This document shows, piece by piece, positions 30,925-64,000 of a DNA stretch of 64,000 nucleotides (the first letter of the stretch is position 1; each line of letters begins with the position of its first letter). A program made the translations under genes and the position numbers. The stretch comes from Tubulanus polymorphus (lineage: Eukaryota; Nemertea; Palaeonemertea; Tubulaniformes; Tubulanidae). Below the pieces are notes generated by a model. The model worked only from the letters and a program-made list of their open reading frames with translations, made no database searches and was not told the origin of the DNA. The stretch is from NCBI RefSeq assembly GCF_964204645.1, contig NC_134035.1, forward strand, positions 8,866,501 through 8,930,500, given 5' to 3'.

Positions 30925-33900
30925 ATGGCGGCCATTATGATCAAAACAGAGCCTTTGGATTTTGAATACGGAGATGCAGGAGGTGATGGTACAGCTTTTG
31001 TAATAGATGAAGATACGTATGTAGTGTTACCCACTGATGCCGATGACGTTACTGATGGAGATATCAACGAGACCGGATTAGCTATAGGCGAACCTTACTC
31101 GCTGGTGAACGCCGATCAACTCGATTCCGATCTGACCGGCGCCGATTCGCTGCTCGCGAAGGAGGACTCAAGTTTGTTAGATCAGGCGTGCGTTCAGCTG
31201 TCGTCGCCGTCGGGAATCTCGACGCAAAACGCCACCAAATACGCCGTGTCGGTTTTCAAAGATTTCTGCGTCGGTAAAAGCTATTCGCCGGCCGCCGTCG
31301 ACGAACTTACGTCGTCCTGTTTACAAGCGTTGTTGACGAGTTTCTATCAGGAAGTTCGCACGGGACGCGGCGCCCTCTATACGAAGAAATCGCTGCAGTG
31401 CATACGCCACGGGTTACAGCGCCATTTTCTGAACCTCGGCACGGGTATCGACATCGTGAAGGACGAAGAGTTCAAAGACGCGAACGTGATTTTCGCGACC
31501 GTCTGCAAAGACCCGGCGCGCAACAACACGGCGCAGTCGGTTCAGATTCAAAAACCGCTTCTCATCAAATCGGACATAAAAAAAATCGAAACGTATTTCC
31601 TCGACTACGACAAATCGAACAAGAAACTGCAGCAGAAAATATTCTACGATTTCATCACGTTTTTAGGGTTTAAAGGTCGCGAGGCGTTGCGACACGTGTC
31701 GACGGAGGTGTTCATCGTGCGCCAGGACGACACAGGTCAGAAATACGTGCTGCTAACGGACGGAACTAACTACCTCGGCGATCTGATCAGCGGTTGGAAG
31801 GAGGACGATACGGCCGACGTGAGCGGGGCCGTCATGTTCGAACGGCCCGGCGACCCGCTCTGCCCGGTGAAAGCGTTCGAATTATACGTGTCGAAGTTGA
31901 ACCCGTGTTGCAATGCATTTTTTCAGTACCCGCGCGACACGTATTCGCGAACCGACGGCGTCTGGTTCGAAAACCGTCCGGTCGGCAAAAACAATCTCGG
32001 TCAGATGATGCAGGTGATCTCGAAGGAGGCCGAACTGTCGCAGATCTACACGAACTATTCGATACGCGTGACGTGTTTGAACGTGCTCGGCGAGTTCGGG
32101 TTCACGCCGTTCAGCGCGGCGATCTCGTCGAAGTACGCCGACTTCGCGACGTTGAAACGACAGATCGCCGACACGGTCGCCGAGGAGCTCGGATACACGT
32201 CGGGCAGTACGTGTCGTACGAACGGCGAAGAGTACCGCGCGCCGCCGACGCCGCCCGTCAAAACGCCGACCGCCGCCATCGAAAAACGTACGTCGTCGAA
32301 CAAAAAACGTAAGTCGGACACGCCGGTGCGCCGGACGCCGACGAAAAAAAATAAAGTCGAAATCGTAACGTGCGACACTCCGGATTCTGGTAAGTATTCG
32401 ATCGTTTACAGGGTTCCGCTGAAATTCAGACTAGTTCAAATAAGACTTGAGAAGACGGATCGAGGTCGGTTCTAAATTTCAGAATGGGCCATTTCTCCGC
32501 GTGTCCAGCTGGACCGGTGAGAATAGCTTAAATTCTTCGAAAAATATTGGTGTCTTTTGTTAATCGGTTGTATTTCTTGTCGGTAGTATTTTTCTTAGGT
32601 AGTATTTATTGGGAACGGATTAAGCATTAGCATTTATTTGAAAAGCCTGTCCTATATAGGTTAGATCTGTTCCATCGAATGGACCGAAAAGTCTGATCGA
32701 GGTTCATTCTAAATTTCAGAGTGGGCCGTTTCTCCGCGTGTCCAGCTGGACCGGCGAGAATAGCTTAAATTCTTCGAAAACTACTGGTGTTAATTCGGTC
32801 AATACAAAGTATGGGTCAAATTAGTATTGACCACTAGCTGATATTGTGAATGCAGTTTAAGGTGTAACCAGTTTATTCTGAGTTGGTCAAGGTTTATTGT
32901 TCTGCTGGTGGATGTATGTGGCAGGTGATTTTCCTCAGAGGCACAGTTGCTACGGGTTACAATTTCAATGCCCCTGTTATATGAGAATATTCGAGAAGGA
33001 TTGAGAGCCTCTACGCGCGCGTTTAGTATGGCTAATCGATGATGTCAGGCCTGCTTAGAAACGTGTTAGAATTTCTCTTGAATCGCCCTGTTATTATAAG
33101 AATAGGACCCACTTTCATAGTTTGGGCCTCGCTTGTAGCAGCTGTGGCTAGTTGCGCGGTGCATCACATGCTAGTCATTGTGTATCGCAATGGTCTTTAT
33201 GTAAGACCATCACTACTTTATTGATGCCCTATACAGATTATACGGGTTGATCGTTACGCAGAATCGCCGAATAGAATGTATTGCGAAGTTCTGTGAGAAT
33301 TAGGTTTTTCTATTATCTTGAGTGGTCGTGCTTGATCGATTCATCGAGTGACTTTTTCCTGTTGAAAATTCGACCGCAATGCATTTAGTCTCCCTATATG
33401 ATTGATAGTTGAACCTTTATTATTGATTTAGGCTGGATTACTGTATTAGGCAAAATGAACCTTTGTTCGATAAATAATACGGTGAAAAAATTAGGTCAAA
33501 TGAGAAGCGATATAATTTTATCAGGAATCTATGCCCCCTCGTTGCGGATGCTATTTGATTTACTGATGGATCTGGTTTGTGGATATTTCGAGGGCTGGTT
33601 TTAAAGTACGGATGGACTCGGTATGCTATGCTATGCTATGCGATAATGGTAAAAGGCTGACATTTAGAGATGACCAATAATGTATGAGTCACGTATACGG
33701 CTAGTGTATAGCGGGTTACAGTACACTCTCTCTCTCACATACACAGTAAACATCAGGCTTCTCTCAATAACTGCGGCGATGTATATGCTCTGTATACAGT
33801 ACAACGCCTGCAGTCCGCCACTCTATTCATCTGTACTACTCGGCGCTCAGCTCTCGCTGCTGTAGCCATGCCTACAGGCTTTAGGAATTGATTTCATACA

Positions 33901-43105: not shown

Positions 43106-43378
43106 ACCTTTCAGTGCTGACTAATCAATACCCTATAGTGCTGGAGATAATTTGGAATATTTGAAACATTCCACCCTAATGTGTTGAATAACGGGAATAC
43201 CACTATAGTGCGTCTACACCGCGGCGCAGTGTATCGTTAGTTATTAATATTCACTATGTTTGACAGGTGCTGCCATCCGTAGAGATGAAAACCAATTACT
43301 ATTTACATCAATACACCGCAGTGCGGTGTACTAGCAAAATCCAACACACCGCACTGCGGTGTAGACGCACTGAAAGGG
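43106..43378. mobile_element. Full-length piggyBac-like MITE
   Basis: TTAA at 43102-43105 and 43379-43382 flank a 273-bp element starting ACCTTTCAGTGCTGAC and ending GACGCACTGAAAGGG. It is a third copy of the family in NIF3L1 intron 1. Truncated relatives occupy five array spacers. Confidence 0.8.
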
Positions 43379-44297
43379 TTAAAGATTGGATAGATTTTTA
43401 AGTACAATTTTTTATCATTTTGAAACGTTTTTCTGACTCAACATTCGGTTGAACCAGAAACTGAGTCCCGAGACTTTATAGAGATAAACAGATAACTATA
43501 GAAATTCTGTTTTGTTTTAATTTCTTGTTGAAATGTACACACTTTGTATTGTTAGTTTTGTTAATTGCCAAGTAATATGAATCAATAAAGTGCGTGACTC
43601 CAAAAAAAACTTCTACTTCTTTGGATGGTCTACTCAGCGACATTCATTTATTGCGTGCACTTTGTGAGAGAAAGGGCTTAATGTACCTATGTCAAAAAAT
43701 GGCAGGGAGGGGAGTTAGAAAATTCAAATTTTGTGCGCACGTAATCAATGAATGAAACTTCAGCAAAGTGCTGAAGAGAGCTACTTTCGGACTTATGCAA
43801 GTTATCTAGTAGAATGTGACACAAATGTAGGTAATATTACGCAGTGTCCAACCTAAGCACTTAGTCTGATAGCCCAGATAAGTATATTTTCATAAGGGCA
43901 AGTAGGTTATCATTTTATCACTTGTCCATTCAGACACTGGACTACTACAATTTTATGTCTCAAAGCTTTTTTTGCCACTCGATACAACAGGGGCCAGTCG
44001 CTCAAAAGTTTAGTTTAAGATAACCGGCAGATAAATACCATAGTGACAATGAACTTTTAATGGTCACTATGTCAACTATCCACTGGTTAACTAAACAACT
44101 GCAATGAAGGGCAAGTTGATTTTTGAAGGGGCTAGCGAAATTTCAGACATGATATCTTGTTTGAAACCGACTCTTATGAATCCGATGACGAATTATGAAT
44201 TGCCATAATCACCATGATCAGAAACAAAAGGTTAACAAGGATTTTCTTATCGTATTACATTAGACTGGATGCACCACGTCGCGCTGACAGTTTATTG
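43379..44297. other. 3' flank of GPCR copy 1
   Basis: This block is repeated in later spacers. It contains AATAAA at 43584-43589 followed 15 bp later by a run of A (a gene-end-like motif), a MITE at 43641-43756, and a foldback at 43990-44102 starting CAGGGGCCAGTCGCTCAAAA. Confidence 0.6.
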
Positions 44298-45236
44298 TCA
44301 ACATTTCAACAACTGAAAGAAAGTTTTTCTGAATTGATTGTTTACAATCAAATAAATGAGTAGATTTACAGAGGAATTGACGGCCGATGTCAAGAGGTAG
44401 GTTGTGTTCAATATTTCCTGGAACGGATAGCGTCTTCCCATTTTACCGAGTAAACCTGGAAATTCCAAAACCGTGAATATGATACTCATTGTCAGCACCA
44501 TTTTCGTCGCCTTCGACATGCCCTGCTTTTCTGACTCAGGCGTTTTACAAGAAGCAGATAGAAATTTCCGTCGTTTTGCTTTAACTCGTAAAACAATCAT
44601 AAGTGTTATATTCGCTCCGAAAACTGCTATATTCGGTATAATGATTCGGAAGATAGGGTCGACGGAGCGGTTCATGAGGACAAAGCTACTGTCAGGTGAG
44701 TAGTACGCCCTGTAGTGAGGGCCGAGTCTGGATCGTTTTTGGAATATAACTCGCATAGTTATAGGGTAATATGAGGGCAGTGCCATTGAAAATATAAAGG
44801 CAAAGACAACGATAGAATTAATGAAGATATTGCGTCGAACCATTAAGATGAAAATCATCGTAATTAATCTTTCGCATTGAATGATAACGGTTAGATAGTT
44901 ACGGAACATTTGAAATCCGTGGTTAAACATAGTCATCCATATGTATATGTGAGGGAAGATCCACTCTGGAATGAAATATTTGATCATATCACCGTACGTA
45001 GCGTAGTGAATATAATAGCGAACCGGGCTCTGGATGAATTTCGTTACCAAAAACATGTTATCAGCAACAGCGAGGTATTTCAGTAAATAGATGCAGCGGT
45101 TTTTAGTCTTCATTCTGAGAAATACAATGAGAACGATCGAGTTTAAACCAACCCCGACTGTCAGTATAGGAGGCAAAATGAATCCTATCACAACCCATTT
45201 GTGGGCATATGAAGTTAAAGTAGAATTAGTTATCAT
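44298..45236 (-). CDS. Class A GPCR, array copy 1 (intact)
   Basis: A single exon of 312 residues from MITNSTLTS to the stop, with seven hydrophobic segments. Family marks: GLN in TM1 (N32), LAVAD in TM2 (D59), CER at the end of TM3 (in place of DRY, arginine 123), a proline in TM5 (IIIPN), FTVLEFP in TM6, and NSSVNLLIYLIVNNQFRKTF in TM7 (NLxIY in place of NPxxY). The layout is rhodopsin-like and resembles invertebrate peptide-receptor-like orphans; the ligand is unknown. N4-S-T is a possible N-glycosylation site. No cysteine occurs at the TM3 top (3.25) or in loop 2, so the usual disulfide is missing. It is the sister of copy 6. Confidence 0.85.
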   Translation of the reverse strand: MITNSTLTSYAHKWVVIGFILPPILTVGVGLNSIVLIVFLRMKTKNRCIYLLKYLAVADNMFLVTKFIQSPVRYYIHYATYGDMIKYFIPEWIFPHIYIWMTMFNHGFQMFRNYLTVIIQCERLITMIFILMVRRNIFINSIVVFAFIFSMALPSYYPITMRVIFQKRSRLGPHYRAYYSPDSSFVLMNRSVDPIFRIIIPNIAVFGANITLMIVLRVKAKRRKFLSASCKTPESEKQGMSKATKMVLTMSIIFTVLEFPGLLGKMGRRYPFQEILNTTYLLTSAVNSSVNLLIYLIVNNQFRKTFFQLLKC

Positions 45237-47744
45237 CCTGAATACGTACTAAATTAAATCTGATCAGCTATTTTAATATAGATTGAATATTGCGCGGCAC
45301 ATGCAGTGTTGTCAAAATTGCCTTTTCAGAAATAGTTCCACCACTTAAGCAACTACCGACAGAGTAAACCTAAGATTAAGAAACTAATATAATTTGTGAT
45401 GTACAACAGCACGGCATCCATGTACGCGAAATCGATAATTCCGCCGCCAGTTTTTAAACCAGAAACTGTAGACATTGGCAATTTCACGATATACAGGTAT
45501 CACATACAAATCTATAGCTCATGGTATATACTACAGTATGATATGTTGCTGAGTGTCTTCAGATGTTCACCATCGGGTTCTGATCAATCCTTGTCGGATT
45601 GATCTGATTAGTGTCAAATGTTGTTCCTATACACTAACATTTTCATTTTTTCATTTCTAATTTATTTTCAGCATTTTGTAATTCAAACTGTAATGTTTAT
45701 CAATCTTACTTTGTTATCATTCTTTTTAACTTCTTGTGGAACCCGGACTAGATTCATTAAATTACCGATCCGAACGACTCACGCGACGCGATGAACCTGC
45801 TGTCTCATTATATCGTAAGGTGCTGCCGCTATGCTCATCGTTAGCGGATTTTTCAAACACCAACAAAAGTCGACTCTGGCAATCACATACATACGATTGC
45901 CAGAGTTGACTCATGTTAGTGTATGAAAAATCCGCTAACGATGAGCATAGCGGCAGCACATTATGGTAAAATTATTATGATATGTAATTCAGGCGAAATA
46001 AGTGATGAATACCGTTGATTTGTCATTCTCACACCAAGCTGAGAAGAAGATACCTTACTAGTTATTATAACGAAAATCCGACCTAGATAAAATATTACGA
46101 GTTATTGAATACGAATGACACTAAATGATTATTGAATAATATTATAGATATGTTGAAATGTTCTGTAAATATTTTGTTTTTTTTACATAGTGTATTGATA
46201 TGCATGTTTTCTCTCCTTATACAATTGACATTGTCAGGTTGAATAAAATTATCTTGTCTTATCTTATCATGAAAGTAACAAAATATTCCCATAATCTACA
46301 TGTATTAGTGGAGTTTAGTTTTCCTCCTTATGCCATGGAAATAAGATTTGGTGTGTAATAAATATTCGTGATTTTGGTTTTTTGATCAGGTTACTCTGCT
46401 TTATATAGCCCCACATCTCATTGGCCCAAAATCCTGGAATGCCCTCCCCCATCTCATTATTGTCGTGTTGAAGCACACTTAATGTTTACTTTTTAGTAGA
46501 CTTGAAAAATTCCGCCCTATTGTGTTGATTAACGGGCGGAATACCACTATAGTGCATCTACACCCTGGCGCGGTGTATCGTTAGTTACTAATATTTAACT
46601 ATGTTTGACAGGTGCTGCCATTCATAGAGATAAAAACCAATTACTATTTACACCAATACACCGCAGTGCGGTGTACTAGCAAAATCCACCACCTACTCAT
46701 ACACCGCACTGCGGTGTAGACGCACTGAAAGGGTTAAAGATTGGATAGATTTTTAAGTACAATTTTTTATCATTTTGAAACGTTTTTCTGACTCATCATT
46801 AGGTTGAACCAGAAACTGAGTCCCGAGACTTTACAGAGATATACAGATAACTATAGAAATTCTGTTTTGTTTTAATTTCTTGTTGAAATGTACACACTTT
46901 GTATTGTTAGTTTTGTTAATTGCCAAGTAATATGAATCAATAAAGTGCGTGACTCCAAAAAAAACTTCTACGTTGGACTTAAAGTAGTTCTTATGTGGTT
47001 TTGAAGTCTACTTAGCGACATTCATTTATTGCGTACACTTTGTGAGGGAGAGGGCTTATGTACCTATGTGAAAAAATGGCAGGAAGGGGAGTTAAAAATT
47101 CAAATTTTGTGCGCACGTAGTCAATGAATGAAACTTCAGCATTGCACAGTGCGATTTCTTGGGGAAAACTTTGTGAAGGCCCTGATAAGTGCTTACTTCT
47201 CACTAAAGTGCTGAAAAGAGCTACTTTCTGATCTGACATACCAGTTATCTAGTAGAATGTGTCAAAAATGTAGGTAATATTACGTAGGGTCCAATCTAAG
47301 CACTTAGTCTGATAGCCCGGGATAAGTGTATTTTCATTAGGGCAAGTAGGTTATCATTTTATCACTTGTCCACTCAGACACTGGACTAGTACAATTTTAT
47401 GTCTCAAAGCTTTTTTTGCCACTCGATACAACAGGGGCCAGTCGCTCAAAAGTTTAGTTTAAGATAACCGGCAGATAAATACGATAGTGACAATGAACTT
47501 TTAATGGTCACTATGTCAACTATCCACTGGTTAACTAAACAACTGTTATGAAGGGCAAGTTGATTTTTGAAGGGGCTAGCGAAATTTCAGACATGATTTC
47601 TTGTTTGAAACCGACTCCAACTGAATCCGATGACGAATTATGTATTGCCACAATCACTATGATCAGAAACACAAAAGGTTACCAGGGATTTTCTTACCGT
47701 ATAACATTAGACTGGATGCACCACGTCGCACTGACAGTTTATTG
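45237..47744. other. Array spacer, copies 1 to 2
   Basis: In order it has an open-framed block (45396-45500), a long hairpin (45820-45959), a LINE-type tail ending GAATAAAATTATCTTGTCTT (46240-46267), a LINE C-terminal scrap reading IGPKSWNALP (about 46417-46446), a left-truncated piggyBac MITE (46504-46733, TTAA at 46734), an AATAAA plus A-run, a small MITE (47020-47131) and a foldback (47433-47545). No gene is supported. Confidence 0.6.
45820..45959. repeat. Long hairpin: 65-nt arms, 10-nt loop
   Basis: The left arm starts GTGCTGCCGCTATGCTCATC and the right arm ends with its inverse. The arms match at all but about five positions around the loop ACATACATAC. Further copies lie at 50066-50205, 56622-56761, 60072-60211 and 63555-63694. 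Confidence 0.9.
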
Positions 47745-48186
47745 TCAACATTTCAACAACTGAAAGAAAGTTTTTCTGAATTGATTGTTTACAATCAAAT
47801 AAATGAATAGATTTACAGAAGAATTGACGGCCGATGTCAAGAGGTAGGTTGTGTTCAATATTTTCTGGAAAGGAAAGTGTCTTCCCATTTTACCGAATAA
47901 ACCTGGAAATTCCAAAACCGTGAATATGATACTCATTGTCAGCACCATTTTCGTCGCCTTCGACATGCCCTGTTTTTCTGATTCTGGCGCTTTACAAGCG
48001 GCAGATAAAAATTTCCGTCGTTTTGCTTTAACTCGTAAAACAATGATTAGCGCTATATTCGCTGCGAAAACTGATATATTCGGTATAATGATTCGGAAGA
48101 TAGGGTCAACGTAACGGTTCATGAGGATAAAACTACTGTCACGTGAGTAGTGCGCTCTGTAGTGAGGACCGAGTCTGGATTTTTTT
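47745..48186 (-). pseudogene. GPCR array copy 2, 5'-truncated
   Basis: Only about the last 147 codons remain (from KSRLGPHYRAHYS to the stop), covering loop 2 to TM7. At 48187 the receptor sequence stops inside a T run and continues as the GCCACTCGATACAACAGG spacer that normally lies 3' of a receptor. The same residues are near-identical to copy 7. No start or TM1-TM4. Confidence 0.9.
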
Positions 48187-48515
48187 TAGCCACTCGATAC
48201 AACAGGGGCCAGTCGCTCAAAAGTTTAGTTTAAGATAACCGGCAGATAAATACCATAGTGACAATGAACTTTTAATGGTCACTATGTCAACTATCCACTG
48301 GTTAACTAAACAACTGCAATGAAGGGCAAGTTGATTTTTGAAGGGGCTAGCGAAATTTCAGACATGATTTCTTGTTTGAAACCGACTCCAACTGAATCCG
48401 ATGACGAATTATGTATTGCCACAATCACTATGATCAGAAACACAAAAGGTTACCAGGGATTTTCTTACTGTATTACATTAGACTGGATGCACCACGTCGC
48501 GCTGACAGTGTATTG
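48187..48515. other. Partial spacer joined to copy 2
   Basis: This is the 3' flank of copy 3, beginning in mid-spacer with the foldback CAGGGGCCAGTCGCTCAAAA. The rest of a normal spacer (hairpin, LINE tail, piggyBac MITE) is absent. Confidence 0.8.
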
Positions 48516-49449
48516 TCAGCTTTTCAACAACTGAAAGAAAGTTTTTCTGAATTGTTTGTTTACAATCAAATAGATGATTAGATTTACAGAAGAATTGACG
48601 ACTGATGTTAAGACGTAGGTTGTGTTCAATATTTCCTGGAAAGGATAGCGTCTTCCCATTTTACCGAGTAAACCTGGAAATTCCAAAATCGTGAATATGA
48701 TACTCATTGTCAGCACCATTTTCGTAGCTTTCGACATGCCCTGTTTTTCTGACTCTGATTTACTAGTCACTAAGAAATTTCCGTTGTTTTGCTTTGACTC
48801 GTCAAACAATGATAAGCGCTATATTCGCTGCGAAAACTAATATATTCGGTATAATGATTCGGACGATCGGGTCGACGTAACGGTTCATGAGGACAAAGCT
48901 ACTGTCACGTGAGTAGTACGCTCTGTAGTGAGGACCGAGTCTGGATCGTTTTTGGAAAATAACTTGCATAGTTATAGGGCAATATGAGCACAATGCCACT
49001 GAAAATATACATGCAAAGGCAACGATAAAATTGATGAAGATATTGCGTTGAACCTTTAAGATAAAAATCATCGTAACTAATCTTTCGCATTGAATGATAA
49101 CAGTTAAATAGTTACGGAACATTTGAAATCCGTTGTTAAACATAGTCATCCATATGTATATGTCAGGGAAGACCCACGTCGCATTGAAATATTTGATCAT
49201 ATCACCGTACGTAGCGTAGTGAATATAATAGCGAACCGGGTCCTGGATGAATTTCGTTACCAAAAACATGTTATCAGCAACAGCGAGGTATTTCAGTAAA
49301 TAGATGCAGCGGATTTTAGTCTTCATTCTGAGAAATAAAATGAGAACGATCGAGTTTAAACCAACTCCGACTGTCAGTATAGGAGGCAAAATGAATCCTA
49401 TCACAACCCATTTGTGGGCATATGAAGTTAAAGTAGAATTAGTTATCAT
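48516..49449 (-). pseudogene. GPCR array copy 3, broken by a stop and a frameshift
   Basis: From MITNSTLTS the frame runs 215 codons (49449-48802) to the end of TM5, where the codon for leucine after ALIIV (TTA in intact copies) is TGA. Shortly after, the loop-3 segment is five bases shorter than in its relatives, so the C-terminal part (48516 to about 48800, SEKQGMSKATKM onward) lies in another frame. TM6 and TM7 are otherwise well preserved, so decay is recent. Confidence 0.9.
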
Positions 49450-51965
49450 CCTGAATACGTACTAAATTAAATCTGATCAGCTATTTTGATATAGATTGAA
49501 TATTGCGCGGCACATGCCGCACACAATGCAAGCTGTAGCAGTGTGGAGCAGTGTTGTCAAAATTGCCTTTTCAGAAATAGTTCCACCACTTAAGCAACTA
49601 CCGACAGAGTAAACCTAAGATTAAGAAACTAATATAATTTGTGATGTACAACAGCACGGCATCCATGTACGCGAAATCGATAATTCCGCCGCCAGTTTTT
49701 AAACCAGAAACTGTAGACATTGGCAATTTCACGATACACAGGTATCACATACAAATCTATAGCTCATGGTATATACTACAGTATGATATGTTGCTGAGTG
49801 TCTTCAGATGTTCACCATCGGGTTCTGATCAGTCCTTGACGATTTGATCTGATTAGTGTCAGATGTTGTTCCTATACACTAACATTTTCATTTTTTTCAT
49901 TTCTAATTTATTTTCAGCATTTAGTAATTCAAACTGTAATGTTTATCAATCTTACTTTGTTATCATTCTGTTTAACTTCTTTTGAGACCCGGACTAGATT
50001 CATTAAATTACCGATCCGAACGACACAGGCGACGCGATAAACCTGCTGTCTCATTATATCGTAAGGTGCTGTCGCTATGCTCATCGTTAGCGGTCTTTTC
50101 AAACACTAACAAAAGTCGACTCTGGCAATCACATACATACGATTGCCAGAGTCGACTCATGTTAGTGTATGAAAAATCCGCTAACGATGAGCATAGCGGC
50201 AGCACATTATGGTAAAATTATTATGATATGTAATTCAGGCGAAATAAGTGATGAATACCGTTGATTTGTCATTCTCACACCAAGCTGAGAAGAAGATACC
50301 TTACTAGTTATTATAACGAAAATCCGACCTAGATAAAATATTACGAGTTATTGAATACGAATGACACTAAATGATTATTGAATAATATTATAGATATGTT
50401 GAGATGTGCTGTAAATATTTTGTTTCTAGTGTATTGATATGCATGTTTTTCTGTCCTTATACAATTGACATTGTCAGGATGAATGAAATTATCTTATCTT
50501 ATCCTATCATGAAAGTAACAAAATATTCCCATAACCAACAAGTATTAGTGGAGTTTAGTTTTCCTCCTTATGCCATGGAAATATGAGTTGGTGTGTAATA
50601 AATATTCGTGATCTTTTTTTTTGATCAGGTTACTCTGCTTTATATAGCCCCACATCTCATTGGCCCAAAATCCTGGAATGCCCCCCCCCAAACTCATTAT
50701 TTTTGTGTTGAAGCACATTTAATGTTCACTTTTTAGTTGACTTGAAAAATTCCACCCTAGTGTGTTGAATAACGGGAATACAGTGCATCTTCAACGCGGC
50801 GCAGTGTATCGTAGTTACTAATACTTCACTTTGTTTGACAGGTGCTGCCATTCATAGAGATAAAAACCAATTACTATTTACACCAATACACCGCAGTGCG
50901 ATGTACTAGCAAAATCCATCACCTATTTATAGACCGCACTGCGGTGTGGACGCACTGAAAGGGTTAAAGATTAGATAGATTTTTAAGTACAATTTTTTAT
51001 CATTTTGAAACGTTTTTCTGACTCCACATTCGGTTGAACCAGAAACTGAGTCCCAAGACTTTATAGAGATAAACAGATAACTATAGAAATTCTGTTTTGT
51101 TTTAATTTCTTGTTGAAATGTACACTTTTTGTTTTGTTAGTTTTGTTAATTGCCAAGTGATATGAATCAGTAAAGTGCGTGACTCCAAAAAAAAACTTCT
51201 ACTTCTTTGGACTTAACGTAGTTCTTATGTTTTGAAGTCTACTCAGTGACATTCATTTATTGCGTGCACTTTGTGAGGGAGAGGGCTTAATAAACCTATG
51301 TCAAAAAATGGCAGGGGGGGGAGTTAGAAAATTCAAATTTTGTGCGCACGTAATCAATGAATGAAACTTCAGCGTTACACAGTGCGATTTCTTGGGGAAA
51401 ACTTTGTGAAGGCCCTGATTAGTGCTTACTTCTCACTAAAGTGCTGAAGAGAGCTACTTTCTGACTTATACAAGTTATCTAGTAGAATGTATCAAAAATG
51501 TAGTACGCAGGGTCCAATCTAAGCACTTAGTCTGATAGCCCGGGATAAGTGTATTTTCATTAGGGCAAGTAGGTTATCATTTTATCACTTGTCCACTCAG
51601 ACACTGGACTAGTACAATGTTATGTCTCAAAGCTTTTTTGCCACTCGATACAACAGGGGTCAGTCGCTCAAAAGTTTAGTTAAAGATAACCGGCAGATAA
51701 ATACCATAGTGACAATGAACTTTTAATCGTCACTATGTCAACTATCCACTGGTTAACTAAACAACTGCAATGAAGGGCAAGTTGATTGTTGAAGGGGCTA
51801 GCGAAATTTCAGACATGATATCTTGTTTGAAACCGACTCTTTTGAATCCGATGACGAATTATGTATTGCCATAATCGCCATGATCAGAAACACAAAAGGT
51901 TACCAGGGATTTTCTTACCGTATTACATTAGACTGGATGCACCACGTCGCGCTGACAGTTTATTG
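49450..51965. other. Array spacer, copies 3 to 4
   Basis: Same order of parts as the first spacer: open-framed block (about 49641-49745), hairpin (50066-50205), LINE tail and GPKSWNA scrap (to about 50690), truncated piggyBac MITE (50740-50963, TTAA at 50964), AATAAA-like end (here AGTAAA), small MITE (about 51250-51362) and foldback (about 51652-51768). No gene. Confidence 0.6.
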
Positions 51966-52904
51966 TCAACAAATTAACAAATGAAAGAAAGTTTTTCTGA
52001 ATTGTTTGTTTACAATCAAATAGATGATTAGATTTACAGAAGAATTGACGACCGATGTCAAGAGGTAGGTTGTGTTCAATGTTTCCTGTAAAGGAAAGCG
52101 TCCTCCCATTTTACCGAGTAAACCTGGAAATTCCAAAACCGTAAATATGATACTCATTGTCAGCACCATTTTCGTCGCCTTCGACATGCCCTGTTTTTCT
52201 GACTCTGGCGGTTTAGAAGCGGCAGATAGAAATTTCCGTCGTTTTGCTTTAACTCGTAAAACAATCATTAGTGCTATATTCGCTGCGAAAACTAATATAT
52301 TCGGTATAATGATTCGGAAGATCGGGTCGACGTAACGGTTCATGAGGATAAAACTACTGTCACGTGAGTAGTGCGCTCTGTAGTGAGGACCGAGTCTAGA
52401 TCGTTTTTGGAAAATAACTCGCATAGTTATAGGGTAATATGAGCACAGTGCCACTGAAAATATACATGCAAAGACGATGATAGAATTAATGAAGATATTG
52501 CGTCGAACCATTAAGATGAAAATCATCGTAACTAATCTTTCGCATTGAATGATAACGGTTAGATAGTTACGGAACATTTGAAATCCGTTGTTAAACATAG
52601 TCATCCATATGTATATGTGAGGGAAGACCCACTTTGCATTGAAATGTTTGATCATATCACCGTACGTCGCATAGTGAATATAATAGCGAACCGGGCTCTG
52701 GATGAATTTCGTTACCAAAAACATGTTATCAGCAACGGCGAGGTATTTCAGTAAATAGATGCAGCGGTTTTTAGTCTTCATTCTGAGAAATACAATGAGA
52801 ACGATCGAGTTTAAACCAACCCCGACTGTCAGTATAGGAGGCAAAATGAATCCTATCATAACCCATTTGTGGGCATATGAAGTTAAAGTAGAATTAGTTA
52901 TCAT
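51966..52904 (-). CDS. Class A GPCR, array copy 4 (intact)
   Basis: A single exon of 312 residues, like copy 1 in every landmark: N32, D59, CER 121-123, P in IIIPN, LEFP, NLIIY. It differs at scattered positions (for example IKHFNAKWVF, ALCSYYP, SAASKPPESEK, GGRFPLQETLN and the tail FFHLLIC). Frame and lengths are undamaged, so it is probably a working receptor. Ligand unknown. Confidence 0.85.
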   Translation of the reverse strand: MITNSTLTSYAHKWVMIGFILPPILTVGVGLNSIVLIVFLRMKTKNRCIYLLKYLAVADNMFLVTKFIQSPVRYYIHYATYGDMIKHFNAKWVFPHIYIWMTMFNNGFQMFRNYLTVIIQCERLVTMIFILMVRRNIFINSIIVFACIFSVALCSYYPITMRVIFQKRSRLGPHYRAHYSRDSSFILMNRYVDPIFRIIIPNILVFAANIALMIVLRVKAKRRKFLSAASKPPESEKQGMSKATKMVLTMSIIFTVLEFPGLLGKMGGRFPLQETLNTTYLLTSVVNSSVNLIIYLIVNKQFRKTFFHLLIC

Positions 52905-55079
52905 CCTGAATACGTACTAAATTAAATCTGATCAGCTATTTTAATATAGATTGAATATTGCGCGGCACATGCCGCACACAATGCAAGCTGTAGCAGTGTG
53001 GAGCAGTGTTGTCAAAATTGCCTTTTCAGAAATAGTTCCACCACTTAAGCAACTACCGACAGAGTAAACCTAAGATTAAGAAACTAATATAATTTGTGAT
53101 GTACAACAGATGAAACGACATCCATGTACGCGAAATCGATTATTCCGCCGCCAGTTTTTAAACCAGAAACTGTAGACATTGGCAATTTCACGATATACAG
53201 GTATCACATACAAATCTATAGCTCATGGTATATACTACAGTATGATATGTTGCTGAGTGTCTTCAGATGTTCACCATTGGGTTCTGATCAGTCCTTGTCG
53301 GATTGATCTGATTAGTGTCAGATGTTGTTCCTATACACTAACATTTTCATTTTTTTCATTTCTAATTTATTTTCAGCATTTTGTAATTCAAACTGTAATG
53401 TTTATCAATCTTACTTTGTTATCATTCTTTTTAACTTCTTGTGAGACCCGGACTAGATTCATTAAATTACCGATCCGAACGACTCACGCGACGCGATCAA
53501 CCTGCTGTCTCATTATATCGTAAGGTGCTGCCGCTATGCTCATCGTTAGCGGACTTTTCAAACACTAACAAAAGTCGACTCTGGCAATCACATACATATC
53601 TTATCATGAAGGTAACAAAATATTCCCATAATCTACATGTATTAGTGGAGTTTAGTTTTCCTCCTTATGCCATGGAAATAAGATTTGGTGTGTAATAAAT
53701 ATTCGTGATTTTGTTTTTTGATCAGGTTACTCTGCTTTATATAGCCCCACATCTCATTGGCCCAAAATCCTGGAATGCCCTCCCCCCATCTCATTATTGT
53801 CGTGTTGAAGCACATTTAATGTTCACTTTTTAGTTGACTTGAAAAATTCCGCCCTATTGTGTTGATTAACGGGCGGAATACCACTATAGTGCATCTACAC
53901 CCTGGCGCGGTGTATCGTTAGTTACTATATTTCACTATGTTTGACAGGTGCTGCCATTCATAGAGATAAAAACCAATTACTATTTACACCGATACACCGC
54001 AGTGCGGTGTACTAGCAAAATCCATCACCTACTCATACACCGCACTGCGGTGTAGACGCACTGAAAGGGTTAAAGATTGGATAGATTTTTAAGTAAAATT
54101 TTCTATCATTTTGAAACGTTTTTCTGACTCATCATTCGGTTGAACCAGAAACTGAGTCCCGAGACTTTATAGAGATAAACAGATAACTATAGAAATTCTG
54201 TTTGTTTTAATTTCTTGTTGAAATGTACAAACTTTGTATTGTTAGTTTTGTTAATTGCCAAGTAATATGAATCAATAAAGTGCGTGACTCCAAAAAAAAA
54301 CTTCTACGTTGGACTTAAAGTAGTTCTTATGTGGTTTTGAAGTCTACTTAGCGACATTCATTTATTGCGTACACTTTGTGAGGGAGAGGGCTTATGTACC
54401 TATGTGAAAAAATGGCAGGAAGGGGAGTTAAAAATTCAAATTTTGTGCGCACGTAGTCAATGAATGAAACTTCAGCATTGCACAGTGCTATTTCTTGGGG
54501 AAAACTTTGTGAAGGCCCTGATTAGTGCTTACTTCTCACCTAAGTGCTGAAGAGAGCTACTTTCTGATTTATACAATTTATCTAGTAGAATTTGACAAAA
54601 ATGTAGGTAATGTTACGCAGGGTCCAACCTAAGCACTTAGTCTGATAGCCCGCGATAAGTATATTATCATTGGGGCAAGTAGGTTATTATTTTATCGCTT
54701 GTCCACTCAGACATTGGACTAGTACAATTTTATGTCTCAAAGCTTTTTTGCCACTCGATACAACAGGGGCCAGTCGCTCAAAAGTTTAGTTTAAGATAAC
54801 CGGCAGATAAATACCATAGTGACAATGAACTTTTAATTGTCACTATGTCAACTATCCACTGGTTAACTAAACAACTGCAATGAAGGGCAAGTTGATTTTT
54901 GAAGGGGCTAGCGAAATTTCAGACATGATTTCTTGTTTGAAACCGACTCCAACTGAATCCGATGACGAATTATGTATTGCCACAATCACTATGATCAGAA
55001 ACACAAAAGGTTACCAGGGATTTTCTTACCGTATTACATTAGACTGGATGCACCACGTCGCGCTGACAGTTTATTGTCA
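52905..55079. other. Array spacer, copies 4 to 5 (shortened)
   Basis: Like the others, but about 340 bp are lost. The hairpin's left arm (53525-53589) is followed at about 53598 directly by TCTTATCATGAA from the LINE tail, so the right arm and following sequence are deleted. The truncated piggyBac MITE lies at 53838-54069 with TTAA at 54070. Confidence 0.65.
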
Positions 55080-56015
55080 TCATTTCAACAACTGAAAGAA
55101 AGTTTTTCTGAATTGATTGTTTACAATCAAATAAATGAATAGATTTACAGAAGAATTGACGACCGATGTCAAGAGGTAGGTTGTGTTCAATATTTTCTGG
55201 AAAGAAAAGCGTCTTCCCATTTTACCGAGTAAACCTGGAAATTCCAAAACTGTGAATATGATACTCATTGTCAGCACCATTTTCGTCGCCTTCGACATGC
55301 CCTGTTTTTCTGACTCTGGCGGTTTACAAGCGGCAGATAAAAATTTCCGTCGTTTTGCTTTAACTCGTAAAACAATCATTAGTGCTATATTCGCTGCGAA
55401 AACTAATATATTCGGTATAATGACTCGGACGATCGGGTCGACGTAACGGTTCATGAGGACAAAACTACTGTCAGGTGAGTAGTACGCTCTGTAGTGAGGA
55501 CCGAGGCTAGAACGTTTTTGGAATATAACTTGCATGTTTATAGGGTAATATGAGCACAGTGCCACTGAAAATATACATGCAAAGACGACGATAAAATTAA
55601 TGAAGATATTGCGTCGAACCATTAAGATGAAAATCATCGTAACTAATCTTTCGCATTGAATGATAACGGTTAAATAGTTGCGGAACATTTGAAATCCGTT
55701 GTTAAACATAGTCATCCATATGTATATGTCAGGGAAGACCCGCTTTGCATTGAAATATTTGATCATATCACCGTACGTAGCGTAGTGAATATAATAGCGA
55801 ACCGGGCCCTGGATGAATTTCGTTACCAAAAACATGTTATCAGCAACGGCGAGACATTTCAGTAAATAGATGCAGCGGTTTTTAGTTTTCATTCTGAGAA
55901 ATACAATAAGAACGATCGAGTTTAAACCAACCCCGACTGTCAGTATAGGAGGCAAAATGAATCCTATCACAACCCATTTGTGGGCATATGAAGTTAAAGT
56001 AGAATTAGTTATCAT
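55080..56015 (-). CDS. Class A GPCR, array copy 5 (intact)
   Basis: A single exon of 311 residues; the last cysteine codon of other copies is lost, so the protein ends FFQLLK. All seven segments and motifs are kept. Changes include LLKCLAVAD, AKRVFPD, YPINMQVIFQKRSSLGP and VRVIIPN. Probably functional; ligand unknown. Confidence 0.85.
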   Translation of the reverse strand: MITNSTLTSYAHKWVVIGFILPPILTVGVGLNSIVLIVFLRMKTKNRCIYLLKCLAVADNMFLVTKFIQGPVRYYIHYATYGDMIKYFNAKRVFPDIYIWMTMFNNGFQMFRNYLTVIIQCERLVTMIFILMVRRNIFINFIVVFACIFSVALCSYYPINMQVIFQKRSSLGPHYRAYYSPDSSFVLMNRYVDPIVRVIIPNILVFAANIALMIVLRVKAKRRKFLSAACKPPESEKQGMSKATKMVLTMSIIFTVLEFPGLLGKMGRRFSFQKILNTTYLLTSVVNSSVNLFIYLIVNNQFRKTFFQLLK

Positions 56016-58544
56016 CCTGAATACGTACTAGATTAAATCTGATCAGCTATTTTAATATAGATTGAATATTGCGCGGCACATGCCGCACACAATGCAAGCT
56101 GTAGCATTGTGCAGCAGTGTTGTCAAAATTGCCTTTTCAGAAATAGTTCCACCACTAACTGACAGAGTTAACCTAAGATTAAGAAACTAATATAATTTGT
56201 GATGTACAACAGCACGGCATCCATGTACGCGAAATCGATTATTCCGCCGCCAGTTTTTAAACCAGAAACTGTAGACACTGGCAATTTCACGATATACAGG
56301 TATCACATACAAATGTATAGCTCATGGTATACTACGGTATGATAAGTTGCCGAGTGTCTTTAGATGTTCACCATTGGGATCCGATCAGTCCTTGACGATT
56401 TGATCTGGTTAGTGTCAGATGTTGTTCCTATACACTAACATTTTCATTTTTTTCATTTCTAATTTATTTTCAGCATTTTGTAATTCAAACTGTAATGTTT
56501 ATCAATCTTACTTTGTTATCATTCTTTTTAACTTCTTGTGAGACCCGGACTAGATTCATTAAATTACCGATCCGAACGACACACGCGACGCGATAAACCT
56601 GCTGTCTCATTATATCCTAAGGTGCTGTCGCTATGCTCATCGTTAGCGGATTTTTCAAACACCAACAAAAGTTGACTCTGGCAATCACATACATACGATT
56701 GCCAGAGTCGACTCATGTTAGTGTATGAAAAATCCGCTAACGATGAGCATAGCGGCAGCACATTATGGTAAAATTATTATGATATGTAATTCAGGCGAAA
56801 TAAGTGATGAATACCATTGATTTGTCATTCTCACACCAAGCTGAGATGAAGATACCTTACTAGTTATTATAACGAAAATCCGACCTAGATAAAATATTAC
56901 GAGTTATTGAATACGAATGACACTAAATGATTATTGAATAATATTATAGATATGTTGAAATGTTCTGTAAATATTTTGTTTTTTTACATAGTGTATTGAT
57001 ATGCATGTTTTCTGTCCTTATACAATTGACATTGTCAGGTTGAATAAAATTATCTTGTCTTATCTTATCATGAAAGTAACAAAATATTCCCATAATCTAC
57101 ATGTATTAGTGGAGTTTAGTTTTCCTCCTTATGCCATGGAAATAAGATTTGGTGTGTAATAAATATTCGTGATTTTGGTTTTTTGATCAGGTTACTCTGC
57201 TTTATATAGCCCCACATCTCATTGGCCCAAAATCCTGGAATGCCCTCCCCCATCTCATTATTGTCGTGTTGAAGCACACTTAATGTTTACTTTTTAGTTG
57301 ACTTGAAAAATTCCGCCCTATTGTGTTGATTAACGGGCGGAATACCACTATAGTGCATCTACACCCTGGCGCGGTGTATCGTTAGTTACTAATATTTAAC
57401 TATGTTTGACAGGTGCTGCCATTCATAGAGATAAAAACCAATTACTATTTACACCAATACACCGCAGTGCGGTGTACTAGCAAAATCCATCACCTACTCA
57501 TACACCGCACTGCGGTGTAGACGCACTGAAAGGGTTAAAGATTGGATAGATTTTTAAGTACAATTTTTTATCATTTTGAAACGTTTTTCTGACTCATCAT
57601 TAGGTTGAACTAGAAACTGAGTCCCGAGACTTTACAGAGATAAACAGATAACTATAGAAATTCTGTTTTGTTTTAATTTCTTGTTGAAATGTACACACTT
57701 TGTATTGTTAGTTTTGTTAATTGCCAAGTAATATGAATCAATAAAGTGCGTGACTCCAAAAAAACTTCTACGTTGGACTTAAAGTAGTTCTTATGTGGTT
57801 TTGAAGTCTACTTAGCGACATTCATTTATTGCGTACACTTTGTGAGGGAGAGGGCTTAATATGTACCTATATGAAAAAATGGCAGGAAGGGGAGTTAAAA
57901 ATTCAAATTTTGTGCGCACGTAGTCAATGAATGAAACTTCAGCATTGCACAGTGCGATTTTTTGGGGAAAACTTTGTGAAGGCCCTGATAAGCGCTTACT
58001 TCTCACTAAAGTGCTGAAAAGAGCTACTTTCTGATCTGACATACCAGTTATCTAGTAGAATGTGTCAAAAATGTAGGTAATATTACGTAGGGTCCAATCT
58101 AAGCACTTAGTCTGATAGCCCGGGATAAGTGTATTTTCATTAGGGCAAGTAGGTTATCATTTTATCACTTGTCCACTCAGACACTGGACTAGTACAATTT
58201 TATGTCTCAAAGCTTTTTTTGCCACTCGATACAACAGGGGCCAGTCGCTCAAAAGTTTAGTTTAAGATAACCGGCAGATAAATACCATAGTGACAATGAA
58301 CTTTTAATTGTCACTATGTCAACTATCCACTGGTTAACTAAACAACTGCAATGAAGGGCAAGTTGATTTTTGAAGGGGCTAGCGAAATTTCAGACATGAT
58401 ATCTTGTTTGAAACCGACTCTTATGAATCCGATGACGAATTATGAATTGCCATAATCACCATGATCAGAAACAAAAGCTTACCAAGGATTTTCTTACCGT
58501 ATTACATTAGACTGGATGCACCACGTCGCGCTGACAGTTTATTG
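56016..58544. other. Array spacer, copies 5 to 6
   Basis: Same elements in the same order: hairpin 56622-56761, LINE tail to about 57070, truncated piggyBac MITE 57300-57534 with TTAA at 57535, AATAAA with A-run near 57740, small MITE near 57820-57935, and foldback near 58233-58350. No gene. Confidence 0.6.
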
Positions 58545-59478
58545 TCAACATTTCAACAACTGAAAGAAAGTTTTTCTGAATTGATTGTTTACAATCAAAT
58601 AAATGAGTAGATTTACAGAGGAATTGACGGCCGATGTCAAGAGGTAGGTTGTGTTCAATATTTCCTGGAAAGGATAGCGTCTTCCCATTTTACCGAGTAA
58701 ACCTGGAAATTCCAAAACCGTGAATACTCATTGTCAGCACCATTTTCGTCGCCTTCGACATGCCCTGCTTTTCTGACTCAGGCGTTTTACAAGAGGCGGA
58801 TAGAAATTTCCGTCGTTTTGCTTTAACTCGTAAAACAATCATAAGTGTTATATTCGCTCCGAAAACTGCTATATTCGGTATAATGATTCGGAAGATAGGG
58901 TCGACGGAGCGGTTCATGAGGACAAAGCTACTGTCAGGTGAGTAGTACGCCCTGTAGTGAGGGCCGAGTCTGGATCGTGTTTGGAATATAACTCGCATAG
59001 TTATAGGGTAATATGAGGACAGTGCCATTGAAAATATAAAGGCAAAGACAACGATAGAATTAATGAAGATATTGCGTCGAACCATTAAGATAAAAATCAT
59101 CGTAATTAATCTTTCGCATTGAATGATAACGGTTAGATAGTTACGGAACATTTGAAATCCGTGGTTAAACATGGTCATCCATATGTATATGTGAGGGAAG
59201 ATCCACTCTGGAATGAAATATTTGATCATATCACCGTACGTAGCGTAGTGAATATAATAGCGAACCGGGCTCTGGATGAATTTCGTTTCCAAAAACATGT
59301 TATCAGCAACAGCGAGGTATTTCAGTAAATAGATGCAGCGGTTTTTAGTCTTCATTCTGAGAAATACAATGAGAACGATCGAGTTTAAACCAACCCCGAC
59401 TGTCAGTATAGGAGGCAAAATGAATCCTATCACAACCCATTTGTGGGCATATGAAGTTAAAGTAGAATTAGTTATCAT
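58545..59478 (-). pseudogene. GPCR array copy 6, frameshifted in TM6
   Basis: Nearly identical to copy 1 over its length. In TM6 the bases corresponding to copy 1's GTGAATATGATACTC read GTGAATACTC, a five-base loss. The frame therefore leaves the receptor after KMVLTMSI and stops at 58690, giving 262 codons without TM6-TM7. The old stop codon is still at 58545. A truncated receptor might be made, but loss of function is likelier. Confidence 0.88.
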
Positions 59479-62000
59479 CCTGAATACGTACTAAATTAAA
59501 TCTGATCAGCTATTTTAATATAGATTGAATATTGCGCGGCACATGCAGTGTTGTCAAAATTGCCTTTTCAGAAATAGTTCCACCACTTAAGCAACTACCG
59601 ACAGAGTAAACCTAAGATTAAGAAACTAATATAATTTGTGATGTACAACAGATGAAACGACATCCATGTACGCGAAATCGATTATTCCGCCGCCAGTTTT
59701 TAAACCAGAAACTGTAGACATTGGCAATTTCACGATACACAGGTATCACATACAAATCTATAGCTATAGCTCATGGTATATACTACAGTATGATATGTTG
59801 GTGAGTGTCTTCAGATGTTCACCATCGGGTTCTGATCAATCCTTTTCGGATTGATCTGATTAGTGTCAAATGTTGCTCCTATACACTAACATTTTCATTT
59901 TTTCATTTCTAATTTATTTTCAGCATTTTGTAATTCAAACTGTAATGTTTATCAATCTTACTTTGTTATCATTCTTTTTAACTTCTTGTGGAACCCGGAC
60001 TAGATTCATTAAATTACCGATCCGAACGACTCACGCGACGCGATAAACCTGCTGTCTCATTATATCGTAAGGTGCTGTCGCTATGCTCATCGTTAGCGGA
60101 TTTTTCAAACACCAACAAAAGTCGACTCTGGCAATCACATACATACGATTGCCAGAGTCGACTCATGTTAGTGTATGAAAAATCCGCTAACGATGAGCAT
60201 AGCGGCAGCACATTATGGTAGAATTATTATGATATGTAATTCAGGCGAAATAAGTGATGAATACCATTGATTTGTCATTCTCACACCAAGCTGAGAAGAA
60301 GATACCTTACTAGTTATTATAACGAAAATCCGACCTAGATAAAATATTACGAGTTATTGAATACGAATGACACTAAATGATTATTGAATAATATTATAGA
60401 TATGTTGAAATGTTCTGTAAATATTTTGTTTTTTTTACATAGTGTATTGATATGCATGTTTTCTCTCCTTATACAATTGACATTGTCAGGTTGAATAAAA
60501 TTATCTTGTCTTATCTTATCATGAAAGTAACAAAATATTCCCATAATCTACATGTATTAGTGGAGTTTAGTTTTCCTCCTTATGCCATGGAAATAAGATT
60601 TGGTGTGTAATAAATATTCGTGATTTTGGTTTTTTGATCAGGTTACTCTGCTTTATATAGCCCCACATCTCATTGGCCCAAAATCCTGGAATGCCCTCCC
60701 CCCATCTCATTATTGTCGTGTTGAAGCACACTTAATGTTTACTTTTTAGTTGACTTGAAAAATTCCGCCCTATTGTGTTGATTAACGGGCGGAATACCAC
60801 TATAGTGCATCTACACCCTGGCGCGGTGTATCGTTAGTTACTAATATTTAACTATGTTTGACAGGTGCTGCCATTCATAGAGATAAAAACCAATTACTAT
60901 TTACACCAATACACCGCAGTGCGGTGTACTAGCAAAATCCATCACCTACTCATACACCGCACTGCGGTGTAGACGCACTGAAAGGGTTAAAGATTGGATA
61001 GATTTTTAAGTACAATTTTCTATCATTTTGAAACGTTTTTCTGACTCATCATTCGGTTGAACCAGAAACTGAGTCCCGAGACTTTACAGAGATAAACAGA
61101 TAACTATAGAAATTCTGTTTTGTTTTAATTTCTTGTTGAAATGTACACACTTTGTATTGTTAGTTTTGTTAATTGCCAAGTAATATGAATCAATAAAGTG
61201 CGTGACTCCAAAAAAAACTTCTACGTTGGACTTAAAGTAGTTCTTATGTGGTTTTGAAGTCTACTTAGCGACATTCATTTATTGCGTACACTTTGTGAGG
61301 GAGAGGGCTTAATATGTACCTATGTGAAAAAATGGCAGGAAGGGGAGTTAAAAATTCAAATTTTGTGCGCACGTAGTCAATGAATGAAACTTCAGCATTG
61401 CACAGTGCGATTTCTTGGGGAAAACTTTGTGAAGGCCCTGATAAGTGCTTACTTCTCACTAAAGTGCTGAAAAGAGCTACTTTCTGATCTGACATACCAG
61501 TTATCTAGTAGAATGTGTCAAAAATGTAGGTAATATTACGCAGGGTCCAATCTAAGCACTTAGTCTGATAGCCCGGGATAAGTATAATTTCATTAGGGCA
61601 AGTAGGTTATCATTTTATCACTTGACCACTCAGACACTGGACTAGTACAATTTTATGTCTCAAAGCTTTTTTTGCCACTCGATACAACAGGGGCCAGTCG
61701 CTCAAAAGTTTAGTTTAAGATAAACGGCAGATAAATACCATAGTGACACTGAACTTTTAATGGTCACTATGTCAACTATCCACTGGTTAACTAAACAACT
61801 GTTATGAAGGGCAAGTTGATTTTTGAAGGGGCTAGCGAAATTTCAGACATGATTTCTTGTTTGAAACCGACTCCAACTGAATCCAATGACGAATTATGTA
61901 TTGCCACAATCACTATGATCAGAAACACAAAATGTTACCAAGGATTTTCTTACTGTATTACATTAGACTGGATGCACCACGTCGCACTGACAGTTTATTT
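59479..62000. other. Array spacer, copies 6 to 7
   Basis: Near-identical to the spacer after copy 1 (offset about 14.25 kb). Hairpin 60072-60211, LINE tail to about 60520, GPKSWNALP scrap, truncated piggyBac MITE 60753-60986 with TTAA at 60987, AATAAA with A-run, small MITE and foldback. No gene. Confidence 0.65.
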
Positions 62001-62939
62001 TCAACATTTCAACAACTGAAAGAAAGTTTTTCTGAATTGATTGTTTACAATCAAATAAATGAATAGATTTACAGAAGAATTGACGACCGATGTCAAGAGG
62101 TAGGTTGTGTTCAATATTTTCTGGAAAGGAAAGTGTCTTCCCATTTTACCGAATAAACCTGGAAATTCCAAAACCGTGAATATGATACTCATTGTCAGCA
62201 CCATTTTCGTCGCCTTCGACATGCCCTGTTTTTCTGATTCTGGTGCTTTACAAGCGGCAGATAAAAATTTCCGTCGTTTTGCTTTAACTCGTAAATCAAT
62301 GATTAGCGCTATATTCGCTGCGAAAACTGATATATTCGGTATAATGATTCGGAAGATAGGGTCAACGTAACGGTTCATGAGGATAAAACTACTGTCACGT
62401 GAGTAGTGCGCTCTGTAGTGAGGACCGAGTCTGGATTTTTTTTGGAATATAACTCGCATAGTTATAGGGTAATATGAGCACAGTGCCACTGAAAATATAC
62501 ATGCAAAGACGATGATAGAATTAATGAAGATATTGCGTCGAACCATTAAGATGAAAATCATCGTAACTAATCTTTCGCATTGAATGATAACGGTTATATA
62601 GTTACGGAACATTTGAAATCCGTTGTTAAACATGGTCATCCATATGTATATGTGAGGAAAGATCCACTTTGGAATGAAATATTTGATCATATCACCGTAC
62701 GTAGCGTAGTGAATATAATAGCGAACCGGGTCCTGGATGAATTTCGTTACCAAAAACATGTTATCAGCAACGGCGAGGTATTTCAGTAAATAGATGCAGC
62801 GGTTTTTAGTCTTCATTCTGAGAAATACAATGAGAACGATCGAGTTTAAACCAACCCCGACTATCAGTATAGGAGGCAAAATGAATCCTATCATAACCCA
62901 TTTGAGGGCATATGAAGTTAAAGTAGAATTAGTTATCAT
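62001..62939 (-). CDS. Class A GPCR, array copy 7 (intact)
   Basis: A single exon of 312 residues with all seven segments. It is the full-length sister of truncated copy 2 (shared GKMGRHFPFQKILNTTYLL). A notable change is IIDLRVKAKRRK, an aspartate at the inner end of TM5 where others have valine. Probably functional; ligand unknown. Confidence 0.85.
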   Translation of the reverse strand: MITNSTLTSYALKWVMIGFILPPILIVGVGLNSIVLIVFLRMKTKNRCIYLLKYLAVADNMFLVTKFIQDPVRYYIHYATYGDMIKYFIPKWIFPHIYIWMTMFNNGFQMFRNYITVIIQCERLVTMIFILMVRRNIFINSIIVFACIFSVALCSYYPITMRVIFQKKSRLGPHYRAHYSRDSSFILMNRYVDPIFRIIIPNISVFAANIALIIDLRVKAKRRKFLSAACKAPESEKQGMSKATKMVLTMSIIFTVLEFPGLFGKMGRHFPFQKILNTTYLLTSVVNSSVNLFIYLIVNNQFRKTFFQLLKC

Positions 62940-64000
62940 CCTGAATACGTACTAAATTAAATCTGATCAGCTATTTTGATATAGATTGAATATTGCGCGG
63001 CACATGCCGCACACAATGCAAGCTGTAGCTGTGTGGAGCAGTGTTGTCAAAATTGCCTTTTCAGAAATAGTTCCACCACTTAAGCAACTACCGACAGAGT
63101 AAACCTAAGATTAAGAAACTAATATAATTTGTGATGTACAACAGCACGGCATCCATGTACGCGAAATCGATAATTCCGCCGCCAGTTTTTAAACCAGAAA
63201 CTGTAGACATTGGCAATTTCACGATATACAGGTATCACATACAAATCTATAGCTCATGGTATATACTACAGTATGATATGTTGCTGAGTGTCTTCAGATG
63301 TTCACCATTGGGTTCTGATCAGTCCTTGACGATTTGATCTGATTAGTGTCAAATGTTGTTCCTATACACTAACATTTTCATTTTTTCATTTCTAATTTAT
63401 TTTCAGCATTTTGTAATTCAAACTGTAATGTTTATCAATCTTACTTTGTTATCATTCTTTTTAACTTCTTGTGGAACCCGGACTAGATTCATTAAATTAC
63501 CGATCCGAACGACTCACGCGACGCGATGAACCTGCTGTCTCATTATATCGTAAGGTGCTGCCGCTATGCTCATCGTTAGCGGATTTTTCAAACACCAACA
63601 AAAGTCGACTCTGGCAATCACATACATACGATTGCCAGAGTCGACTCATGTTAGTGTATGAAAAATCCGCTAACGATGAGCATAGCGGCAGAACATTATG
63701 GTAAAATTATTATGATATGTAATTCAGGCGAAATAAGTGATGAATACCATTGATCTGTCATTCTCACACCAAGCTGAGAAGAAGATACCTTACTAGTTAT
63801 TATAACGAAAATCCGACCTAGATAAAATATTACGAGTTATTGAATACGAATGACACTAAATGATTATTGAATAATATTATAGATATGTTGAAATGTTCTG
63901 TAAATATTTTGTTTTTTTTACATAGTGTATTGATATGCATGTTTTCTCTCCTTATACAATTGACATTGTCAGGTTGAATAAAATTATCTTGTCTTATCTT
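62940..64000. other. 5' flank of copy 7, array continues past the window
   Basis: The open-framed block (63131-63240), hairpin (63555-63694) and LINE tail are present, as in other spacers. The window ends inside the tail (CTTGTCTTATCTT), so further units may follow. Confidence 0.65.

Follow-up and report, generated by a model that had tools for sequence, protein, structure and literature searches.

Background

Among described systems a close comparison is offered by the candidate chemoreceptor genes of Aplysia, which are chiefly single-exon, clustered and rhodopsin-like (the AcCRb proteins are 319-364 amino acids long), and whose representatives are restricted to, or differentially expressed in, the rhinophore and oral tentacles (PMC2700072). 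Of 90 chemoreceptor-like genes in Aplysia, 29 have Srw as their best-scoring domain, as do 16 genes in Lottia (PMC3963977).

The locus considered here lies in a 64-kb window (G000:C11:8866501-8930500), the whole stretch of DNA that was analysed; extended coordinates run on past its right end, and the genome searched for relatives comprises 267.8 Mb in 77 contigs. On balance, and with some reserve, we regard this locus as the product of a recent tandem expansion, in a lophotrochozoan, of a single Srw-like (rhodopsin-class) GPCR; most of the open copies probably make receptors, with external chemosensing as their likeliest use.

Organization of the array

Between 43161 and 64000 the window holds seven copies of one 312-residue receptor, four of them open and three broken (Table 1). 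Self-alignment and reading frames bear out an earlier note on this DNA as to the seven copies in the same orientation, all on the minus strand, four intact and three differently broken, and as to the start codons at 45236, 49449, 52904, 56015, 59478 and 62939, to which a start-less copy (48187-47745) is to be added. Its description of the units as mostly 3.1-3.5 kb long is also right, the start-to-start distances of the copies with start codons being 4213, 3455, 3111, 3463 and 3461. As that note had recognized, the array leaves the window: it overruns it by 9.3 kb, adding three open copies before it stops at extended coordinate 73317, and in its entirety comprises ten copies head to tail, seven with open frames and three broken. 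The start given there for the array, 43106, does fall near the left end of a dispersed inverted-repeat element, and 43106-43161 lies inside a fuller copy of that element, but unit homology begins only at 43161. In the self-alignment the units are about 89-98% identical to each other over 0.6-7 kb, far beyond chance. Rfam gave no match anywhere in the array.

Table 1. Features of the receptor array, in window positions except where extended coordinates are indicated
Feature	Position	Strand	Evidence
Array left edge: dispersed ~300-base inverted-repeat element and unit sequence; unit homology from 43161	43106..43765		Self-alignment, genome search
Open receptor copy, 312 aa	44298..45236	-	Self-alignment and reading frame; Pfam Srw 22.4 bits vs cut-off 22.2
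5'-truncated copy, codons 167-312 only (first 496 bases gone)	47745..48187	-	Self-alignment
Exchange junction: mid-gene joined to region downstream of next gene, ~6 bases common to both sides	48182..48187		Self-alignment end points, sequence
Broken copy: codon 215 followed by an in-frame stop, with a 5-base deletion beyond it	48526..49449	-	Alignment of copies
Open receptor copy, 312 aa	51966..52904	-	Reading frame, Pfam Srw, self-alignment
Candidate promoter block, ~72-135 bases upstream of start codon	52976..53039	-	Dispersed relatives on C3, C5, C11 weakly similar in their upstream DNA
Truncated dispersed inverted-repeat element, example in one unit	53839..54073		Genome search
Open receptor copy, 311 aa; 99.3% identity with copy starting at 69525	55080..56015	-	Reading frame, Pfam Srw
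Broken copy: 5 bases lost around codon 251, end frameshifted	58545..59478	-	Self-alignment, alignment of copies
Open receptor copy, 312 aa; 99.4% identity with copy starting at 66417	62001..62939	-	Reading frame, Pfam Srw
Three further open copies right of window	starts at extended 66417, 69525, 72967	-	Window extension

The closest relative of a unit shifts along the unit's length, which makes the units mosaics; the first ~250 bases of copy 49449, for instance, are nearest to copies 45236, 62939 and 59478, while further in the copy that starts at 72967 is its closest relative. The truncated copy 48187-47745 ends at the exchange junction, and all of it matches, without a difference, the open copy that starts at 66417. 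Blocks 43765-48187 and 58008-62443 share 98.1% identity and represent a duplication of some one and a half units. The broken copy 59478-58545 is 99.1% identical to the open copy 45236-44298, and its 5-base deletion is a different one from that of 49449-48526. Unequal exchange between misaligned units built this mosaic array, and with mosaics, junctions and open and broken copies side by side, the characterization of the array as still turning over was apt.

Every complete unit contains a truncated copy of the dispersed inverted-repeat element, full-length copies of which (~296 bases) occur elsewhere in the genome; the simplest reading is a founding duplication with one break inside this element. 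The 5' flanks differ by 0-3.7% when the end copy (72967) is left out, as against 4-8% for most gene pairs, and the flanks are also exchanged between units. The gene diverges more than the 5' flank (third positions, 28 of 226 vs. 11 of 284; p = 0.0004), with no significant difference between its third positions and the 3' flank (p = 0.09). Because the flanks are exchanged, the excess over the 5' flank is not taken as proof of diversifying selection.

Family placement

The family, left as an orphan in the earlier note, finds its place in Pfam 7TM_GPCR_Srw (PF10324). The four open proteins of the window score 22.4, 28.3, 30.1 and 30.8 bits against a curated cut-off of 22.2, the weakest (copy 45236) being barely over it, and residues ~25-312 of the receptor align with positions 7-318 of the 319 in the profile. 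Pfam 7tm_1 (PF00001) gives no match to the window copies even at E<1. Among 16 family members at E<0.01, 12 match Srw, four Srx and two 7tm_1. Passing PF10324 and not PF00001 puts the array in the Srw-like branch, related to the rhodopsin-class (class A) receptors. The description "single-exon class A GPCRs" accordingly stands as regards the uninterrupted coding exon and the class A-like motifs, but the narrower label "Srw-like, related to class A" is to be preferred, there being no PF00001 match in the window copies.

Most of the signature positions of class A are kept in the 65 relatives compared: N1.50 and D2.50 in 64 each, the TM3 arginine (R3.50, the E/DRY position) in all 65, N7.49 in 64 and Y7.53 in 63. 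Position 6.48 is Glu in place of Trp in every one of the 65, and the TM7 motif is mostly NLxxY or NFxxY instead of NPxxY. The nearest solved structures by sequence are somatostatin, galanin, NPFF, dopamine, adrenergic and S1P receptors, the similarity lying mostly in TM6-TM7 (E 1e-7 to 1e-3). Hydropathy gives six clear peaks, with TM2 below threshold, and an AlphaFold model built from only the four near-identical window sequences reached pLDDT 35 and pTM 0.20.

The cysteines set the family apart. Class A receptors usually carry a cysteine 25 residues before the TM3 arginine (C3.25), paired with one in ECL2, though this is not universal, the S1P and LPA receptors being known exceptions. None of the 65 family members from this genome has a cysteine at that distance ahead of the TM3 arginine, while all six of the strong PF00001-matching receptors of the same genome, checked in the same way, have it. 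Outside the array's clade an N-terminal and an ECL2 cysteine occur together in 27 of 27 members; inside it the ECL2 cysteine is absent from all 38 and the N-terminal one from 37, and in the exception (L058) it sits where the reading frame is extended upstream. A single joint loss of both cysteines would explain this pattern. From the pairing we infer that the ancestor had a disulfide between N-terminus and ECL2, for which LPA1 provides a parallel. We suggest tentatively, giving the idea somewhat less than even weight, that in the Srw-like family this disulfide replaced the one between TM3 and ECL2, and that the array's clade then lost both cysteines and with them any covalent tether of ECL2. 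Should the cysteine pattern hold in other species, it would offer a test of how far class A receptors need such a tether.

Relatives in the genome

Some 30 further family members with at least 47% protein identity to the array are scattered over at least nine contigs. The closest are at C11 13.15 Mb (81%), C3 20.76 Mb (77%) and C5 21.88 Mb (76%, broken), followed by seven at C11 1.97-3.74 Mb (68-70%) and about 25 on C3, C4, C6, C7, C8, C9, C11, C12 and C33 (47-55%). In the tree the copies of the array group together (support 0.99) inside a clade of 38 (support 0.86), and this lineage shares only 28-40% identity with the remaining related groups of the genome. Retroposition of the dispersed copies, for which similarity limited to the ORF might be adduced, is not favoured: weak similarity upstream of the start is also seen between copies, and neutral flanks at dS near 0.5 would in any case be difficult to align.

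The seven copies at C11 1.97-3.74 Mb (L021-L027) are near-identical to each other (96-99.5% over ~2.5-3.9 kb), some of them 80-85 kb apart, with those at the left on the minus strand and those at the right on the plus strand; this looks like a recent large segmental duplication with inversion. Adjoining the duplicated receptor, L021:200-624 has 99% matches to repeats, spaced mostly 4.6-7 kb, that occur at the termini of C4 and C7 as well as on small contigs; its longest frame is without a Pfam match and by eye resembles a retroelement protein (KCRTPRCRTC, possibly Penelope-like). A second receptor cluster, at G000:C8 10.463-10.479 Mb, has at least seven members in 15 kb, mostly on the minus strand and 50-52% identical to the array.

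Two features outside the receptor family may be recorded here. A 520-residue open frame at window 30913-32475 (plus strand) matches DUF3504 (E 5e-7), with weak similarity to QRICH1, and may be a gene that descends from a tyrosine recombinase of the Crypton type. At G000:C6 5.318-5.635 Mb some ten Hox genes, every one on the plus strand, make up a compact cluster; among them are a Lox5-like gene whose homeodomain is followed by AKLNGP and a pair of genes in which an IKELN stretch resembles the Ubd-A peptide. Taken with established Hox knowledge, these signatures support the Lophotrochozoa, the group whose proteomes the earlier note proposed to search. Mitochondrial COX1 was looked for in the genome and gave no hit.

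Upstream DNA

The similarity score of the upstream block of Table 1 was reached against C3 by one of 200 shuffles, and that for the C3-C5 pair by none. Three of the relatives (L016, L018 and L019) and window 52976-53039 are alike in the region ~70-250 bases ahead of the start, near TGAAAAGAAAATC and TTTGCAT, the latter being octamer-like. The shared block is a candidate promoter element. Immediately before the ATG, AGG is found in eight of the nine array copies with a start (window 52905-52910 and the matching places) and also in the four nearest lineages, against a background of 0.8% of the ATGs in the window; it is absent from the sister clade at 50% identity. This conserved AGG may be the 3' splice site of an intron in the 5' leader.

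Selection and alternative explanations

Pairwise dN/dS is 0.32-0.59 between well-separated open copies and 0.16-0.33 against and among the dispersed relatives. In codon models omega is 0.556 for the seven open array copies (omega = 1 rejected, 2 x delta lnL 10.5, p about 0.001) and 0.25 for the dispersed members (omega = 1 rejected, 2 x delta lnL 203), both away from the value near 1 that the earlier note would have counted against working receptors. The open copies are thus under weak but detectable purifying selection; changes are spread near-evenly over the three codon positions (22, 19 and 28 of about 227 each), which indicates that constraint within the array is weak. With helix borders placed by eye on the alignment, variable residues number 4 of 50 in TM3 and TM6 and 17 of 40 in ECL1 and ECL3 (p = 0.00015), and parts of TM4-TM5 are variable too. 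Near-fixed helices and varying loops would fit working receptors with changing binding surfaces, though plain relaxation of the loops would look similar.

These figures bear directly on the view that the cluster is decaying and mostly non-functional, shaped by exchange and drift, with frames open mainly because they are young. Three of the ten copies are indeed broken, the array's omega (0.56) exceeds that of the relatives (0.25), and the codon positions vary almost equally. Yet rejection of omega = 1 (2 x delta lnL 10.5), the near-invariance of TM3 and TM6 while the loops vary, and the seven of ten frames still open at dS near 0.1 make wholesale decay decidedly improbable. An assembly artefact, in which haplotypes or false repeats were placed end to end, might be suspected from the 99% identity of some unit pairs, but is scarcely credible, as most units are 4-8% apart and show indels, junctions and a mosaic structure peculiar to each.

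A more substantial alternative, if still an unlikely one, is that the receptors answer to a neuropeptide or another messenger of internal origin and were multiplied for dosage or peptide variants. The profile's best matches among solved structures include the somatostatin, galanin and neuropeptide FF receptors, and tandem expansion is possible for peptide receptors too. However, the same structure searches return dopamine, adrenergic and S1P receptors, so that peptide receptors are not singled out; Pfam prefers Srw; and fast turnover, several broken copies and close paralogs scattered by the dozen are generally more usual for chemoreceptors.

The favoured reading, a chemosensory expansion, is as follows. 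Each unit carries one uninterrupted coding exon with its own upstream DNA and a truncated inverted-repeat element, and misaligned units exchange unequally, so being copied, deleted and shuffled. Most open copies probably yield receptors presumed to reach the cell surface, where the near-fixed TM3 and TM6 would retain G-protein coupling and the variable ECL1, ECL3 and parts of TM4-TM5 would alter what is bound. Their likeliest role would be to detect outside chemicals, as has been suggested for Aplysia's candidate chemoreceptors of the Srw-like kind, with both ligand type and sensory use being surmised.

Comparison with known systems

The array shares with the Srw-like receptors of other protostomes (PF10324; nematode srw and its mollusc, insect and Schistosoma relatives, PMC3963977) its multigene character, its rhodopsin-class motifs and a score above the cut-off; it differs in forming a lineage-specific clade that lacks both the TM3 and the ECL2 cysteine. 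With AcCRa, b and c of Aplysia (PMC2700072) it has in common clustering, an uninterrupted coding exon and, where TM3 ends, a Glu-Arg motif that reads ERC in the AcCRs and CERL in the array. The likeness as a whole, including the NSSVNI near the C-terminal end of AcCRa beside the NSSVNL in TM7 of the array, is a resemblance only, the sequences being unaligned. Several cysteines are conserved in the Aplysia receptors, whereas the array has none in the N-terminus or ECL2. Similarity to the solved class A receptors SSTR4, GALR2, NPFFR1, DRD2 and S1P1 is detectable, mostly in TM6-TM7 (E 1e-7 to 1e-3), but the array departs from them in having Glu instead of W6.48, NLxxY or NFxxY instead of NPxxY, and no C3.25.

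The chemoreceptor-type genomic traits, namely clustering, uninterrupted coding exons and rapid birth and death, are all present. The best reading of the sequence is a lineage-specific, still-changing cluster of Srw-like candidate chemoreceptors, with genes arising and decaying in the ordinary way of a receptor type already known. As such it adds one lineage to an already known pattern, and presents a clear natural case of a chemoreceptor-type cluster caught in mid-change, with open and broken copies, junctions, mosaic genes and dispersed relatives.
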